From positions 1-9,914 of the forward strand of contig JACRGO010000044.1 in NCBI GenBank assembly GCA_016212295.1: 9,914 nt of DNA, written 5' to 3'. The stretch comes from Nitrospinota bacterium (GTDB lineage: Bacteria > Nitrospinota > Nitrospinia > JACRGO01). The position numbers and the translations under genes were made by a program. Position 1 is the stretch's first letter. Each line of letters begins with the position of its first letter. This document shows, in pieces, positions 4,401 through 9,793 of the stretch. A model generated the notes under the pieces. That model searched no databases. It saw nothing but the letters and a program-made list of their open reading frames with translations, and was not told the DNA's origin.

Positions 4401-6536
4401 TTAATAAAGATAAGCCGCCTGAAAGCCGAATGTCCTCTGGGCGCCCCAAAAATCAAGAGAACCGATAAATTGGGTGTTCCGGATGACGTTTTGGCGGTAT
4501 AAGGCGCTGGTAAGGTTCTTCCCCCAGAGGGCGAGCCGCCAATCCCCGCCGGCGGCTTCAAACTCCAGCCTGGCGTTCAGAATATGGAAACCTTTCTGAT
4601 TTACTCCATGAGCGTTGAACTGGTTGAAAAAAACCTCGGATTGATATCTCCAATCCCCTTGCATGATAAGGTCCCCATGCCCCATCAGCGGATAAGCGTA
4701 CCGAAGCATCACATTGGAGGTAAGTTCCGGGGCCTTGGGCAGGAGGTTCCCCGACAAGTCCTGATTTGCCGTCGGGTCCAAGGCGTCCGGGTCCGGCGTG
4801 GCATATTCCGTAAACCGGGCGTCCAGAAGGGCTACTCCGATTTCCATGTCCAGATCTGGGAGAAGAAAGGCGCGAAGGTCCGTCTCCAGGCCTTTCACTT
4901 CCGCCTGGGCCGCGTTCTCAAGAAGAAAGAGACCGGGGGCGTCGTTTGAAAAACTCTGGACCTGCAAGTCCTTGTAGTCGTAATAGAAAGCCGAGGCGTT
5001 CCACTGGAGGCGGCCTCCAGGGACAGAGGATTTCAAGCCGGCTTCGTAACTCCAGATAAACTCCGGATTGAATTGCTCTCCTGAACCCGCTGAATTGAAA
5101 CCGCCGCTCTTGAATCCCCGTGTCGCTGAAACATAGGCCAAAATATCCTCCGTGGCGAAAAAATCCAACCCGAACTTCGGCATCCACGCCCCCCATCCCT
5201 TGCTCGCGTCCTTATACAAAGTCCCCGCCGCCCCGTTATGAATGACGTGATGTTTGTCTTCATAGCCGTACCGGAGACCGGCCGTCGCCCTCCATTTGTC
5301 TGTCAGGAAATAGGACGCCTGGCCGTAAACCGCATAGGCATTCGTCCTGTTCCTAGCGAAGGTGTTGAGACGCACGGCGTATGGCGTTAAAGAGAAATCC
5401 AGCTCCTGGGCGGATTTTTCATGGAGATAATACACTCCAGCCAGCCATTCAAGGGGTCCTTTGTCATTTGATGTGAATTGAAACTCCTGGGTCACGGCCT
5501 TGGAGTTTTCGTTGGGGGCGCTGGAGCTGTAATCCACGTCCGTGTGGTCGATATCGATCAGTAAATTCAGATCCGTCTCGTGATACGCCGTGAGGGACAT
5601 GAGGGAGAAGAGTCCACTGTCCCAGGTGATTTTTAAGCTGTCGCCGATTTCGTACAGATCGTTCCTGTCCTTGAAGGTGTTGTAAACCTCTCTTGGATCT
5701 CCGGGGTTGATTCCGCCAAAGAGGTCTATTTGCGGCGCGGGGAGATTGGAGTTGACCTTGGCCCCCAGGCCACGGGAGCCTTTTTCCTTCATATAGTCCG
5801 CGCTGACGAGGACTTCCACCTCTTCCGAGGCCAGAATCCGCAATTGGGCGCGGCCTGCCCTTAAATCCTCGTCGTCGGTCCTTGTGCCCAGGTTCACGAC
5901 CCTGATGAATCCGTCGCGGTCCGAGCTCAGGCCGGAAAGGCGCAGGAAAACCCTGTCGTCAACCAAGGGCGCGTTTACCATGCCCTGGATTCTCAGCTTG
6001 TTGTAATTCCCATAAATGAGATCGGCCTCCATGGACAAATCCGGCTCCGGCGTCCTGGAGATGATGTTCACGGTCCCGCCCGTGGCGTTCCTGCCGTAAA
6101 GGGTCCCCTGGGGCCCCTTGACTACCTCCACCCGCTCGACGTCGAAAAAATCGGCAAGGGCGCCCATGGCGCGGGATTGGTACACGCCGTCCTTGTATAT
6201 GGCCACGGTGGATTCGCTCCCTATGGAAACGAAATCGGAACCCACGCCCCGGATATAAGGCTGCCCAAGAACGGCGTTCGTGCTGAAGAGAAATCCGGGC
6301 GTCCGGAGGGGGAGATCGAGGGTGGATTCCACGCCGGAGGCGTTCAATTCCTCTCCTGTATGGACCGTGATGGACATGGGGACCTCTTGCGGGTCTTCCT
6401 CGCGCCTCTCGGCGGTCACTGTCACATCCTCGAGTTCATAATATTCATTTTCCGCCTTTGCCGGTCCGGAAATAAACAGAACCAGGAGAAGCGCCAGGCT
6501 ATTACAGACGGCAAATCGATTAGACTGAAGTTTCAT
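4401..6536 (-). CDS. TonB-dependent outer-membrane receptor
   Basis: This is a ligand-gated outer-membrane importer (siderophore, cobalamin, sugar or similar) energised by TonB-ExbBD. The reading frame stays open to 6689, but the first 49 codons are a dispersed repeat read through. The ATG at 6536 (or 6542) opens a proper signal peptide: MKLQ, a hydrophobic core, then AKA before ENEYY. From 6536 the protein has 711 residues, normal for the family. Numbered from 6536, a TonB-box-like EDVTVTA lies near residue 37. The plug domain runs from about 47 to 160 and includes PYIRGVG, AIYKDGVY, RVEVVKGPQGTLYGRNATGG and VNIISRTP. The remainder is beta-barrel, with alternating aromatic strands and a C-terminal AAYLY. 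No residues identify the ligand. No good Shine-Dalgarno precedes the start. A TonB C-terminal remnant and a two-component pair lie upstream on the same strand, which suggests regulated uptake, but this is context only. Confidence 0.9.
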   Translation of the reverse strand: MKLQSNRFAVCNSLALLLVLFISGPAKAENEYYELEDVTVTAERREEDPQEVPMSITVHTGEELNASGVESTLDLPLRTPGFLFSTNAVLGQPYIRGVGSDFVSIGSESTVAIYKDGVYQSRAMGALADFFDVERVEVVKGPQGTLYGRNATGGTVNIISRTPEPDLSMEADLIYGNYNKLRIQGMVNAPLVDDRVFLRLSGLSSDRDGFIRVVNLGTRTDDEDLRAGRAQLRILASEEVEVLVSADYMKEKGSRGLGAKVNSNLPAPQIDLFGGINPGDPREVYNTFKDRNDLYEIGDSLKITWDSGLFSLMSLTAYHETDLNLLIDIDHTDVDYSSSAPNENSKAVTQEFQFTSNDKGPLEWLAGVYYLHEKSAQELDFSLTPYAVRLNTFARNRTNAYAVYGQASYFLTDKWRATAGLRYGYEDKHHVIHNGAAGTLYKDASKGWGAWMPKFGLDFFATEDILAYVSATRGFKSGGFNSAGSGEQFNPEFIWSYEAGLKSSVPGGRLQWNASAFYYDYKDLQVQSFSNDAPGLFLLENAAQAEVKGLETDLRAFLLPDLDMEIGVALLDARFTEYATPDPDALDPTANQDLSGNLLPKAPELTSNVMLRYAYPLMGHGDLIMQGDWRYQSEVFFNQFNAHGVNQKGFHILNARLEFEAAGGDWRLALWGKNLTSALYRQNVIRNTQFIGSLDFWGAQRTFGFQAAYLY

Positions 6537-6620
6537 AACCATAAAGGACACAAAAAATTCACAAAGAACACGGAGAAAAAACTTTGTGATCTTTGTGCCT
6601 GCTTTATGCGCTTTGTGGTT
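6537..6620. repeat. 84-bp CACAAAG-type element with inverted ends
   Basis: The element begins AACCATAAAG (6537-6546) and ends CTTTGTGGTT (6611-6620), which are reverse complements at nine of ten bases. Inside are several ACAAAG/CTTTGTG units. It abuts the receptor start codon (6536-6534) with no spacer. Positions 6574-6602 recur at 1396-1424 (28 of 29 bases). It looks like a small non-autonomous mobile or REP-like repeat. Confidence 0.65.
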
Positions 6621-6631
6621 AAAAAATTTGT

Positions 6632-6798
6632 AACCGTTCACGGGTTCAAGGTTCAAGGTTGAAAGGACGTGATCACGGCAATATTGCAAGGTTTTTTTTT
6701 AGGGCATTCCACCTTGGTTATAGCGCCGCTCAACAAAAATCCGCGTGGGTACAGGGTTTTCTAAAACCCGGAACCCTGAACCTGTAACCGTGAACGGG
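6632..6798. repeat. Inverted GTTCAAGGTTCA-type repeats enclosing about 110 bp
   Basis: CCGTTCACGG at 6634-6643 is the exact reverse complement of 6788-6797. Adjoining GGTTCA-rich stretches continue the similarity on both sides. The enclosed DNA includes a GGGTTT/AAACCC hairpin (6754-6769) and a run of nine T (6692-6700). The same GTTCAAGGTTCAA string (6644-6656) is found inverted inside the kinase gene at 9505-9517. No gene is seen here. Confidence 0.5.
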
Positions 6799-7074: not shown

Positions 7075-7728
7075 TCATTTTTTGAGGCCCTTTTTATTCT
7101 CAATTGCGTAGGCAAGCAGGGCGTTTGCTCCTCTCAGGCCGAGCTTGGCGCGCATATTATTGCGATGGTTCTGAACGGTCCTGCGGCTCAAACATAGTTC
7201 CCCGGCGATCTCCTTGCTCGTTTTATTTTCCGAGATCAAGCGGAGGATATTGAATTCGGCTGGAGTCAACGCGTGCATGGAGGTCCTTTCCCTTGCCGTG
7301 AGTTTTTCTTTTTTATATTGTTCCGCTAAATGGCCGGAAATCAGTGGACTGATATATTTTTTCCCGGCAGCCGCGTATTTTATCGCCGTGGCCAGGTCCT
7401 GGGCCGTGTTCTCCTTTAATATATAGCCTTTGATCCCTATTTCCATGGCCTCGATGAGATATTCTTCATCCTCATACATGGTGAGAATCACGAACTCCAC
7501 GGGCAGCTTTTCTTCCATTGCCTTTTTGGCCACAACGAGGCCGTTTAAACGAGGCATGCTTATATCCAACACCGCGACGTCCGGCTTCAGGGCCCTGATC
7601 TTATTCAGGGCCTCCAATCCGTCTTCCGCCTCCGCCGTTACTTCGAATGACGGATCGCTCCCTATAAGTTTCACGAATCCCTGGCGTATAAGGTGATGGT
7701 CGTCCGCCACCAGAATTTTAATTTTCAT
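7075..7728 (-). CDS. NarL/FixJ-family response regulator
   Basis: This 217-residue cytoplasmic transcription factor has an N-terminal receiver domain (about 1-120) with the acidic pair D9-D10, phospho-acceptor D55 in VAVLDISMP, T83 and K105 in place. The C-terminal LuxR-type helix-turn-helix (about 154-210) contains LTPAEFNILRLISENKTSKEIA and SRRTVQNHRNNMRAKLG. All residues needed for phosphorylation and DNA binding are present, so it looks functional. The ATG at 7728 is supported by AAGGA at 7740-7736, seven bases upstream. Its natural partner is the HisKA_3-type sensor kinase encoded just upstream on the same strand. The pair is now separated by a large palindromic element (7746-8112). Its stop overlaps the ATG of the TonB remnant. 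Target genes are unknown; the receptor and the locus itself are reasonable guesses. Confidence 0.92.
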   Translation of the reverse strand: MKIKILVADDHHLIRQGFVKLIGSDPSFEVTAEAEDGLEALNKIRALKPDVAVLDISMPRLNGLVVAKKAMEEKLPVEFVILTMYEDEEYLIEAMEIGIKGYILKENTAQDLATAIKYAAAGKKYISPLISGHLAEQYKKEKLTARERTSMHALTPAEFNILRLISENKTSKEIAGELCLSRRTVQNHRNNMRAKLGLRGANALLAYAIENKKGLKK

Positions 7729-7745
7729 TTTTGAATCCTTTTTTT

Positions 7746-8112
7746 ACCATGAAGGGCATGAAGAGCATGAAGTAAGTCATAAAACAAAACATTTTTTGTA
7801 ACTATTCAGCGTTTTTTTCCCCAAAGGGGATATTTATTTCAGCCCAGGGTTGCCGAAGGCTACCCTGGGTTACTGAAAACAACATCCATCTTTCCCCGGA
7901 GGGGATATATAACACCCTGAAAAACATTATTTATGTATCCCCTCCGGGGAAAAATATTTTGTGGGTTTCCCATACCCAGGGCAGCCTTCGGCAACCCTGG
8001 GCTATCATATGTAACCCCTTCGGGGTAGAATTGAGTGAATTTTTTATAAAAGACGCTGAATAGTTACCATTCTTATAGCTTTTCCCTTCAAGCCCCTCCT
8101 GCTCTTCATGGT
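7746..8112. repeat. 367-bp nested palindromic element
   Basis: The gap between kinase stop and regulator ribosome-binding site is one large palindrome of at least five nested arm pairs. These are 7746-7772 with 8086-8112 (22 of 27 complementary), 7798-7812 with 8053-8067 (15 of 15), 7819-7829 with about 8014-8024 (CCCC-GGGG hairpins), 7841-7870 with 7974-8003 (29 of 30) and 7891-7907 with 7936-7952 (17 of 17). Several arms are hairpins themselves; 7842-7869 folds into a 12-base stem with one mismatch and a GAA loop. There are no plausible ORFs inside. The outermost arms carry CATGAAG units that suggest a repeat unit of their own. Element edges lie 5 bases from the regulator Shine-Dalgarno and 9 bases from the kinase stop. 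It is best called a MITE-like or composite REP-like insertion; an RNA role as attenuator or processing site is possible. Confidence 0.8.
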
Positions 8113-8121
8113 GAAATCTCT

Positions 8122-8475
8122 TTATTTCAGCGGAATCCGCGCCTCCACTGTTGTTCCCTTGCCCGGCGCCGAGTCCACGCGAAACGTCCCCCCGCAAATC
8201 CTGGCCCACTCCTCCATGCTCCTGAGTCCGAGTCCTGAGTGATGAGGACCCTTGCCCCCATTTCGCTCTTTTGCGTCAAACCCCTTGCCGTTGTCCGTTA
8301 TTTTCAGATGTAGGCAGCCGTTTGCATGGGTCATCTCCACCACGCCTTCCCTGGCCTTCGAGTGCTTGATTATATTGTTCAACCCCTCCTGGACGATTCT
8401 GTATATTTGAATCTCCGCGCCAGGGGAAAAGCGTCCCCTTTTTAACGTCAATTTTTTCCTGGATTTCCAAGCCAA
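8122..8475 (-). CDS. Histidine kinase C-terminal ATPase part (after frameshift)
   Basis: This frame carries the HATPase_c domain missing from the longer upstream frame. The conserved sequence begins at PGAEIQIYRIVQEGLNN (about residues 18-34). It contains the N box (GLNNIIKHSKA), G1 box (DNGKGFD) and G2 box (HSGLGLRSMEEWA), and ends in GTTVEARIPLK. The ATG at 8475 is not a likely natural start, because the first 17 residues have no family resemblance and overlap the other frame. Joining the two frames by one skipped base at 8422 gives a kinase of about 556 residues. The intact N, G1 and G2 motifs argue that the frameshift is recent, a sequencing error, or translationally bypassed. The stop at 8124-8122 is nine bases from the edge of the palindromic element. 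Confidence 0.8.
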   Translation of the reverse strand: MAWKSRKKLTLKRGRFSPGAEIQIYRIVQEGLNNIIKHSKAREGVVEMTHANGCLHLKITDNGKGFDAKERNGGKGPHHSGLGLRSMEEWARICGGTFRVDSAPGKGTTVEARIPLK

Positions 8476-9793
8476 AGGACCGGGACACGCTTTTTGCCAA
8501 GGACCGGATGGCGCTCTTCAGTCCAAGCTGCTCCAATTGCGGAGGATGAAGGTTGTAGGATATTTCCTTGATTTCGCGCAGGGACCGCAGGGCCGTGGCG
8601 GATATCAGATTCAGGAGCTCCGCCTCTTTCCCATTGATGGGAAATTCCCTCACGGCATTCAGCGCCTCGGCGCTTATGGCCATCATGTTCTGGGCCAGGC
8701 TGTCGTGCAGTTCCGCCGCTATCCGCTTCCTCTCGGCCTCCTGGGATTCCACCAGTTTTTTGGAAAATTGCCTTTGCGCCTCCTCGCTCCGGCCCAGTTG
8801 ATCATACAGCATGGCGTTTTCCAGGGAGATGGCGGCCTGGCGGGCCAGGTGATTCAGGACCTCCAGCTTCTTGCCCGTGAACATGCCCGGGGCGAGGTTA
8901 TTTTCAAGATACAGGACGCCGGTGAGCGCTGCTTCCCGCAGGATGGGAAGGCACAGGATCGACCTCAGCCCCTTTCCCGCCACGCAGGGCTCCCCGGTGA
9001 AAGGCCCCTCCCTGGCCGCGTCATGAAGAACAACTGTTTCCAGGGTCCTGGAAACATAATTCACGATCCCGGCAGGGCGCCTGCCGTTCTCCACGAGGGG
9101 AAGGGATTCCAGCGCTAAGATTTGAAATCGGTCCTCCCCTTTTTTCTCATGGCCGTCCTCCTCTCCTTTAATAATTCGACCCTCGGCCTCGATATATAAA
9201 GTCCCTTCCCGCGCCAGAAGCAGGCATCCCTCTTCCGCGCCCGCGGTCTCCAGCATCACTTCCATCAGTTTCACGAGCAGATTTTTCAGGGAAAGTTCTC
9301 CGGAAATGATCCGGGCGGATTTCAGGATCGAGGCTGCGTCCAGCAGATCCATGTCTTCGGAATCCTTTCCATTCGCTTCGGACGTTTCCTTCCCGTGTTC
9401 AGGCCTCAGGAAGGCGAATTCTTCAGCCAAGGCCCTGACCTTGGCCGTGGCGCCCCAATGGAAATAACCGGAACAGGCTTCCCGCAAGTAAATTTCGGCA
9501 AGTTTTGAACCTTGAACTTTGAATCCTGATTTTTTTTGGAAGAACCTTCCTGCCAGCTCGCGGCCCATGGCCGCGTGGTGGATGAATCCGTTTTTTTCGG
9601 CTGCATCAATAGCGGCGTCATAAAGGTCCATGGCCTTGAGCGCGTCCCCGGAAACCCGCTCCCGTTCCGCGTTCATCAGATAATATTTGTGAAGGAAATT
9701 TTCCGGGCACCCCTTTGCCCATCTTTTCATCCTTTGGATATTCTTGTTCATCTTTCGTGAAAATCGTCTCTTCTCTCTATAGAGCCTACGCAT
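8276..9793 (-). CDS. Sensor histidine kinase, GAF and HisKA_3 part, frameshifted and 5'-truncated
   Basis: The frame gives 505 residues, of which about 1-457 are meaningful. Residues 15-130 (RMKRWAKGCPENFLHKYYL and the helical repeats after it) match the TPR-like stretch that precedes GAF in large trifunctional Ser/Thr-kinase/ATPase/histidine-kinase proteins. The kinase and ATPase halves are absent. A GAF domain covers about 170-330. The dimerisation/phosphorylation helix has ERKRIAAELHDS with H363, the HisKA_3 type that pairs with NarL/FixJ regulators. At F456-P457 the frame leaves the homology, and the ATPase domain continues in another frame (8122-8475). Residues 91-97 (FKVQGSK) come from a dispersed repeat. 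An in-frame stop lies two codons upstream (9799-9797), so the frame cannot extend. ATG 9793 has no Shine-Dalgarno; M15 at 9751 is an alternative. It is cytoplasmic, with no membrane segment, and its signal is unknown. Confidence 0.82.
   Translation of the reverse strand: MRRLYREKRRFSRKMNKNIQRMKRWAKGCPENFLHKYYLMNAERERVSGDALKAMDLYDAAIDAAEKNGFIHHAAMGRELAGRFFQKKSGFKVQGSKLAEIYLREACSGYFHWGATAKVRALAEEFAFLRPEHGKETSEANGKDSEDMDLLDAASILKSARIISGELSLKNLLVKLMEVMLETAGAEEGCLLLAREGTLYIEAEGRIIKGEEDGHEKKGEDRFQILALESLPLVENGRRPAGIVNYVSRTLETVVLHDAAREGPFTGEPCVAGKGLRSILCLPILREAALTGVLYLENNLAPGMFTGKKLEVLNHLARQAAISLENAMLYDQLGRSEEAQRQFSKKLVESQEAERKRIAAELHDSLAQNMMAISAEALNAVREFPINGKEAELLNLISATALRSLREIKEISYNLHPPQLEQLGLKSAIRSLAKSVSRSFGLEIQEKIDVKKGTLFPWRGDSNIQNRPGGVEQYNQALEGQGRRGGDDPCKRLPTSENNGQRQGV
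9503..9528 (-). repeat. Dispersed repeat embedded in the kinase coding sequence
   Basis: The minus strand reads GGATTCAAAGTTCAAGGTTCAA here, encoding GFKVQGSK in frame. Thirteen bases (9517-9505) are identical to 6644-6656 in the intergenic repeat upstream of the receptor. Related proteins usually have about five fewer residues at this point, between the helical repeat and the AxxYLxEA helix. Confidence 0.6.

Follow-up and report, generated by a model that had tools for sequence, protein, structure and literature searches.

The window analysed here, a 9,914-nt stretch of Nitrospinota contig JACRGO010000044.1, carries a GAF histidine kinase gene and, downstream of it, the gene for a response regulator (Table 1). 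The kinase is split between two frames, one that carries GAF/HisKA_3 and ends at 8276 and one that carries the ATPase domain and ends at 8122, which may reflect a pseudogene or decaying operon, or else an assembly or base-call error. The 393-nt gap between the two genes (regulator start at 7728, last kinase frame stopping at 8122) is filled by a nested palindrome, which at 7742–8116 is slightly wider than the 7746–8112 given in a first-pass annotation of this DNA.

The arm pairs of the palindrome lie about where that annotation had placed them. Perfect pairs occur at 7841–7861/7983–8003 (21/21, the core of what had been described as a 29/30 pair), 7891–7907/7936–7952 (17/17), 7798–7812/8053–8067 (15/15) and 7757–7767/8100–8110 (11/11), and imperfect arms include 92 nt at 72% (7793–7884/7960–8051) and the 31-nt outermost pair (Table 1). 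The longest perfect arm in 200 dinucleotide-preserving shuffles was 13 nt, against 21 nt in the real sequence. Five or more arm pairs had been described as symmetric about one centre; they are roughly concentric, but their centres spread from 7921.5 to 7933.5, up to 12 nt apart and with no single exact point, which is what layers of different origin would give. Some arms are themselves hairpins, as had been noted (7843–7869, 7975–8001), and the sense-strand RNA is predicted to fold into one long, very stable hairpin with an MFE of −199.7 kcal/mol, compared with −102.6 ± 5.4 kcal/mol for shuffled sequences (z = −18.1; 0/100 as low). On sequence grounds, the palindrome is made of three concentric layers: an outer ring, a 270-bp element and a hairpin core. 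The earlier idea of a composite MITE-like element or stacked REP-like units was thus essentially right, given the layers and the copies and 8-bp duplications described below, but not as a single 367-bp unit: the mobile unit is 7798–8067, and the outer arms come from an older repeat.

Table 1. Features of the kinase–regulator gap and its flanking genes (positions in the window).
Feature	Position	Strand	Remarks
Outer ring, left arm, 9-nt-period ATGAAG repeat	7742..7772	+	Pairs with 8086–8116, 81% over 31 nt
Left 8-bp target duplication CATTTTTT	7790..7797	+	6/8 against 8068–8075
Left terminal inverted repeat GTAACTATTCAGCGT	7798..7812	+	15/15 with 8053–8067
Hairpin a (CCCCAAAGGGG)	7819..7829	+	From sequence; kept in copies
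Hairpin b (CCCAGGG...CCCTGGG)	7843..7869	+	Aligned to Y1 transposase flank
Hairpin c (CCCCGGAGGGG)	7894..7904	+	Within 17/17 arm pair; aligned to Y1 flank
17-nt centre, at the place of the Y1 transposase ORF in G001	7913..7929	+	BLAST matches to Y1 flanks stop there
Hairpin c' (CCCCTCCGGGG)	7939..7949	+	Within 17/17 arm pair
Hairpin b' (CCCAGGG...CCCTGGG)	7975..8001	+	Own hairpin; with a' resembles Acido-Lenti-1 RNA
Hairpin a' (CCCCTTCGGGG)	8015..8025	+	From sequence; kept in copies
Right terminal inverted repeat	8053..8067	-	15/15 with left repeat
Right 8-bp target duplication CATTCTTA	8068..8075	+	6/8 against 7790–7797
Outer ring, right arm	8086..8116	-	Pairs with 7742–7772
Response regulator (receiver + LuxR-type HTH), downstream gene	7075..7728	-	PF00072, PF00196
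GAF histidine kinase, upstream gene, frameshift near 8400	8122..9793	-	PF01590, PF07730, PF02518; two overlapping frames

The mobile unit has terminal inverted repeats (TIRs) GTAACTATTCAGCG and no transposase ORF inside its 270 bp. BLAST matches to the region number 27 in its own genome (3.74 Mb in 237 contigs, about 90% complete) and 21 in a same-genus genome, G001; the dispersed copies are 83–93% identical, and many have the same ends, one of the signs that the first-pass annotation had proposed to look for. The terminal 12-mer GTAACTATTCAG occurs at 47 exact sites in the own genome, its reversed control at none. Fifteen own-genome copies are two-ended (138–275 bp), nine of which have perfect 8-bp direct repeats outside the TIRs (e.g. 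GAAGAAAC, AAAAAATC, GAATTTTT, AAAAGATT), target-site duplications being another of the proposed signs; that of the window copy is imperfect. Perfect 8-bp duplications were also found in copies of G001, of the class relative G004, of Kuenenia and of Methylobacter. Within the own genome the same ends enclose at least two core types unrelated to each other: subfamily A, with members in the window and at C49, C232, C89, C1 and C93, and subfamily B, the core of which consists of CCCCCTTAATCCCCCTTTGTTAAGGGGG-type hairpins. The copies share no gene context and lie in many unrelated places. Many own-genome contigs break 125–140 bp into a copy; thus the repeats limited the assembly.

Elements with such ends also occur outside the genus. 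Among 84,980 genomes scanned for a pair of perfect 14-nt ends lying 220–250 bp apart, they turned up in Ca. K. hertensis, Ca. Methylobacter oryzae, a Burkholderiales MAG and two 'Nitrospirae' MAGs, and most of the elements so found have perfect 8-bp repeats. No relatives were found in plasmids or phages, the TIR pair did not occur in IMG/VR, and a full-text literature search for the TIR letters gave no match. The same TIRs enclose other mirrored-hairpin cores (e.g. GTTCCCAAACTCCAGTTTGGGAACG) in Kuenenia (L152 5261–5529), the Burkholderiales MAG (L157 6773–7030) and G004 (L135 1147–1424), which looks like the result of several captures of hairpin cores. Further variants occur. At L100 1991–2149 and L043 759–916 lies a 159-bp relative that has TIR GTAACTACTCAGC and a different core, and its 8-bp duplication at L100 is perfect; the copy at L085 696–1039 (G001:C19) has two left TIRs 61 bp apart and one right TIR, the outer left TIR giving a perfect duplication, TAAAAAAG.

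The ends of the element point to the IS66 family. Laboratory transposition has been observed for ISDge4, a member of the ISBst12 group of IS66 whose TIRs are GTGACTACTCAGCA/GTAACTGCTCAGCA and whose insertion shows an 8-bp repeat (PMC12898284); other IS66 elements likewise give 8-bp repeats (PMC3281130). The window element has a nearly identical TIR (GTAACTGCTCAGCA versus GTAACTATTCAGCG) and 8-bp direct repeats in its family, but it lacks a transposase gene and is 270 bp long rather than about 1.5–1.7 kb. The connection is also visible in coding sequence: in G004 an IS66 transposase fragment (PF03050; NF033517) ends ...LPKFAE, and the TIR there encodes the last codons of the transposase and its stop (TTC GCT GAA TAG TTAC). 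In G015 and G001, too, IS66 C-terminal coding continues into the TIR, or into a version that differs from it by one base, and C10 of the own genome holds a degenerate IS66 C-terminal piece. Larger elements of this kind occur elsewhere, and those of Kuenenia and Chlorohelix are complete IS66 elements with related TIRs. Ca. Kuenenia hertensis has a whole element of 1721 bp with a frameshifted IS66 gene, TIR core CTATTCAGCG and duplication GTTTATCA, its outermost TIR bases differing from GTAAC. A Ca. Chlorohelix plasmid carries a 1504 bp element with an annotated IS66 transposase, TIRs GTAACAATTCAG/GTAACAGTTCAG and duplication TTCAATTT; an Oceanisphaera plasmid a 1570 bp element with GTAACTATTCAGCTT at both ends and no duplication; and a Marinobacter plasmid a 960-bp derivative with duplication AAAACTTT.

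The own assembly, which is about 90% complete and broken at repeats, yielded no intact IS66 carrying exactly these TIRs, and a query of IMG/VR with the IS66 fragment gave no match. None of the three genomes searched contains the IS66 protein TnpB (PF05717), in keeping with the single ORF of the ISBst12 group. Two candidates for an autonomous element were rejected: a nuclease–IS66 fusion, the only full PF03050 protein of the own genome, has none of these TIRs nearby, and a 3.7-kb TIR-like pair at G001:C11 encloses ordinary genes and has no duplication. The fusion itself, in which an IS66-type transposase domain is joined to a TM0106-family RecB-like nuclease domain, occurs in both genomes of the genus (L068 1372–3492, G000:C81; L123 1378–3762, G001:C44), in each case away from the TIRs of the MITE. 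With TIRs, target duplications and short, foldable, multi-copy members that contain no ORF, the element resembles MITEs in general. It departs from them in that its core is an IS200-type hairpin frame rather than an internally deleted IS66, and in that it sits inside another palindrome.

The core (7819–8025) is built symmetrically, with three hairpins, then a centre of 17 nt, then the same three in mirrored order (a-b-c/c'-b'-a'). At two places in G001, C249 (L089) and C442 (L088), the same hairpin set lies on both sides of a small ORF that encodes a Y1/IS200-type transposase (PF01797, E about 1e-22). This protein scores 59 bits against the IS200 model NF033573 (cut-off 55) and 22.5 bits against the REP-associated NF047646, below its cut-off of 80. 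In the L088 alignment, element positions 20–115 correspond to one flank at 88% and positions 133–237 to the other at 78%, and the matches stop about at the start and end of the Y1 ORF; thus it appears that the core is a Y1 cassette frame without its gene. G001 also holds gene-less copies with IS66 TIRs (L085, L086), and its Y1 cassettes carry no such TIRs. Hairpin repeats associated with Y1 genes are known as REPtrons and TIRtrons (PMC3733652), and in these terms the Y1 cassette is a TIRtron. The window set is like these in that its hairpins match the flanks of a Y1 transposase ORF, and unlike them in lacking the gene, in being surrounded by IS66-type ends and in having as its G001 counterpart an IS200-type rather than a REP-associated protein. 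REP-type elements have an unpaired GTAG tag next to every hairpin; here a GTAG follows hairpin a' (8025–8028) and overlaps its stem, and such motifs are not systematic beside the hairpins.

Hairpins b'-a' also show the two-stem layout of Acido-Lenti-1 RNA (RF01687, PMC2864571) and match the whole model, but their score of 28.5 bits at 7975–8027 does not reach the gathering cut-off of 37. Matches above the cut-off occur at L007 (44.2 bits) and L070 (43.4 bits). The L007 match (G000:C127) goes with a similar hairpin sextet at about 1700–2010 whose inverted ends are different (CCATTAAGTTAAGG); such a module of hairpins may be carried between various kinds of ends. Rfam microRNA matches, far below cut-off, were rejected as hairpin look-alikes.

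The outer ring consists of paired 9-nt-period ATGAAG repeats and is not common to other copies of the MITE; a ring of this type, with ATGAAG/ACGAAG repeats, also surrounds the Methylobacter copy. Insertions inside older palindromes were found in the window, at C58 of the own genome, in a bin of another family of the class and in Methylobacter. When sites were emptied in silico by removing the MITE and one duplication, 4 of the 29 beat all 145 random controls as inverted repeats. A given inverted-repeat score was reached at 6 of the 29 sites and at 43 of the 2500 AT-matched positions (Fisher p about 1e-5), a value that is indicative only, the AT-matched controls being not fully independent, overlapping some shared palindromes and including coding DNA. 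These inverted-repeat scores, with random and AT-matched controls, replaced a duplex-energy test of empty sites that was biased against AT-rich flanks. We suggest, tentatively, that MITEs of IS66/ISBst12 type may prefer the loops of existing cruciform-forming palindromes and repeatedly take up the hairpin cores of other elements, so that nested palindromes would grow by successive captures.

Periodic palindromes of this general kind were also seen elsewhere. One at 6528–6629 of the window is uninterrupted, with 44-nt arms and a 14-nt loop, and lies within the 5' extension of a TonB-receptor ORF, the true start of which is probably downstream of the TTG at 6689. At L083, L091, L093, L096, L116 and L117 of G001, the TIR variant GTAACTACTCAGC is followed immediately by 9-nt-period repeats of the CCACTAAGGCACAAAGAC type, as would be expected if periodic palindromes themselves served there as cores of such elements.

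Taken together, 7798–8067 is very probably a non-autonomous MITE with ISBst12-group IS66 ends and the core of an emptied Y1 cassette, inserted in the loop of an older palindrome. This reading builds on features demonstrated in the sequences compared above: the division into three layers, the existence of copies, the 8-bp duplications of the family, the link of the TIRs to IS66 and the Y1 cassette match. In the order of events that we infer, the hairpin set a-b-c/c'-b'-a', which elsewhere in the genus flanks an IS200-type Y1 transposase gene and here has 17 nt instead of the gene, would first have been enclosed between IS66 ends. An IS66-family DDE transposase most likely moved the MITE in trans, making the 8-bp target duplications, and the MITE would have landed in the AT-rich loop of a 9-nt-period ATGAAG palindrome already present between the kinase and regulator genes. 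Because the MITE lies inside the loop of the ring, three concentric palindromes look like one of 370 bp. The element's effect on the operon is probably incidental: a very stable hairpin in the kinase–regulator mRNA might, by its predicted fold, alter processing or polarity.

Is the structure instead a selected cis-acting RNA, a processing site, attenuator or stabiliser that sets the kinase:regulator ratio, with mobile origin only its history? The very stable sense-strand fold, the position exactly between the two cistrons and the resemblance of b'-a' to Acido-Lenti-1 RNA would suit such a role, and effects of MITE hairpins on mRNA stability, in either direction, have been reported (PMC3733652). 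We nevertheless consider it unlikely, since the same element occurs in many unrelated places with no common gene context, the Acido-Lenti-1 match is below cut-off, the kinase frame is broken in this assembly, and neither a terminator-like nor a promoter-like site was found on the sense strand of the element. A homologous kinase–regulator pair in a class relative (G002:C68), moreover, has 47 nt from kinase stop to regulator start, without the element. Such a pair speaks for a gap that was once short, and with it for the earlier proposal of an insertion between once-adjacent genes, although the relative, with a regulator about 49% identical, is too distant for a strict empty site. The ribosome-binding site of the regulator lies outside the big helix. 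The earlier suggestion that the element could uncouple kinase from regulator expression gains no support from the sense strand, given that neither kind of site was found there.

A second alternative would have the Y1 (IS200-type) transposase move the unit, with the hairpins as its recognition ends and the IS66-like ends as bystanders. The hairpin set does flank Y1 genes in G001 and occurs with other ends at L007, and Y1-associated repeats are a known class. Yet it is at the IS66 TIRs that the copies end, next to 8-bp target duplications of a kind not known from Y1 transposition, and the same TIRs carry unrelated cores in subfamily B, Kuenenia and Methylobacter, which makes a Y1 mover quite improbable. 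A local origin of the palindrome in the gap, through inverted duplication, template switching or assembly error, would account for its roughly concentric layers and is hardly credible: it is refuted by the dispersed copies in the own and the same-genus genome, and the offset arm centres and the relatives that every layer has elsewhere also speak against it.

As a whole, the palindrome is best read as one layer of mobile DNA nested in another, not as an established regulatory device. A MITE of IS66 type within an older repeat explains a very large intergenic palindrome as a legible stack of IS66-type ends, an emptied IS200-type frame and the older repeat itself. It suggests that some of the RNAs grouped by Rfam as Acido-Lenti-1 may belong to mobile repeats. 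It also connects the ISBst12-group IS66 transposases with a 14-nt TIR that recurs across several distant lineages of bacteria, and for this poorly studied transposase group palindrome loops offer a testable hypothesis of target choice.
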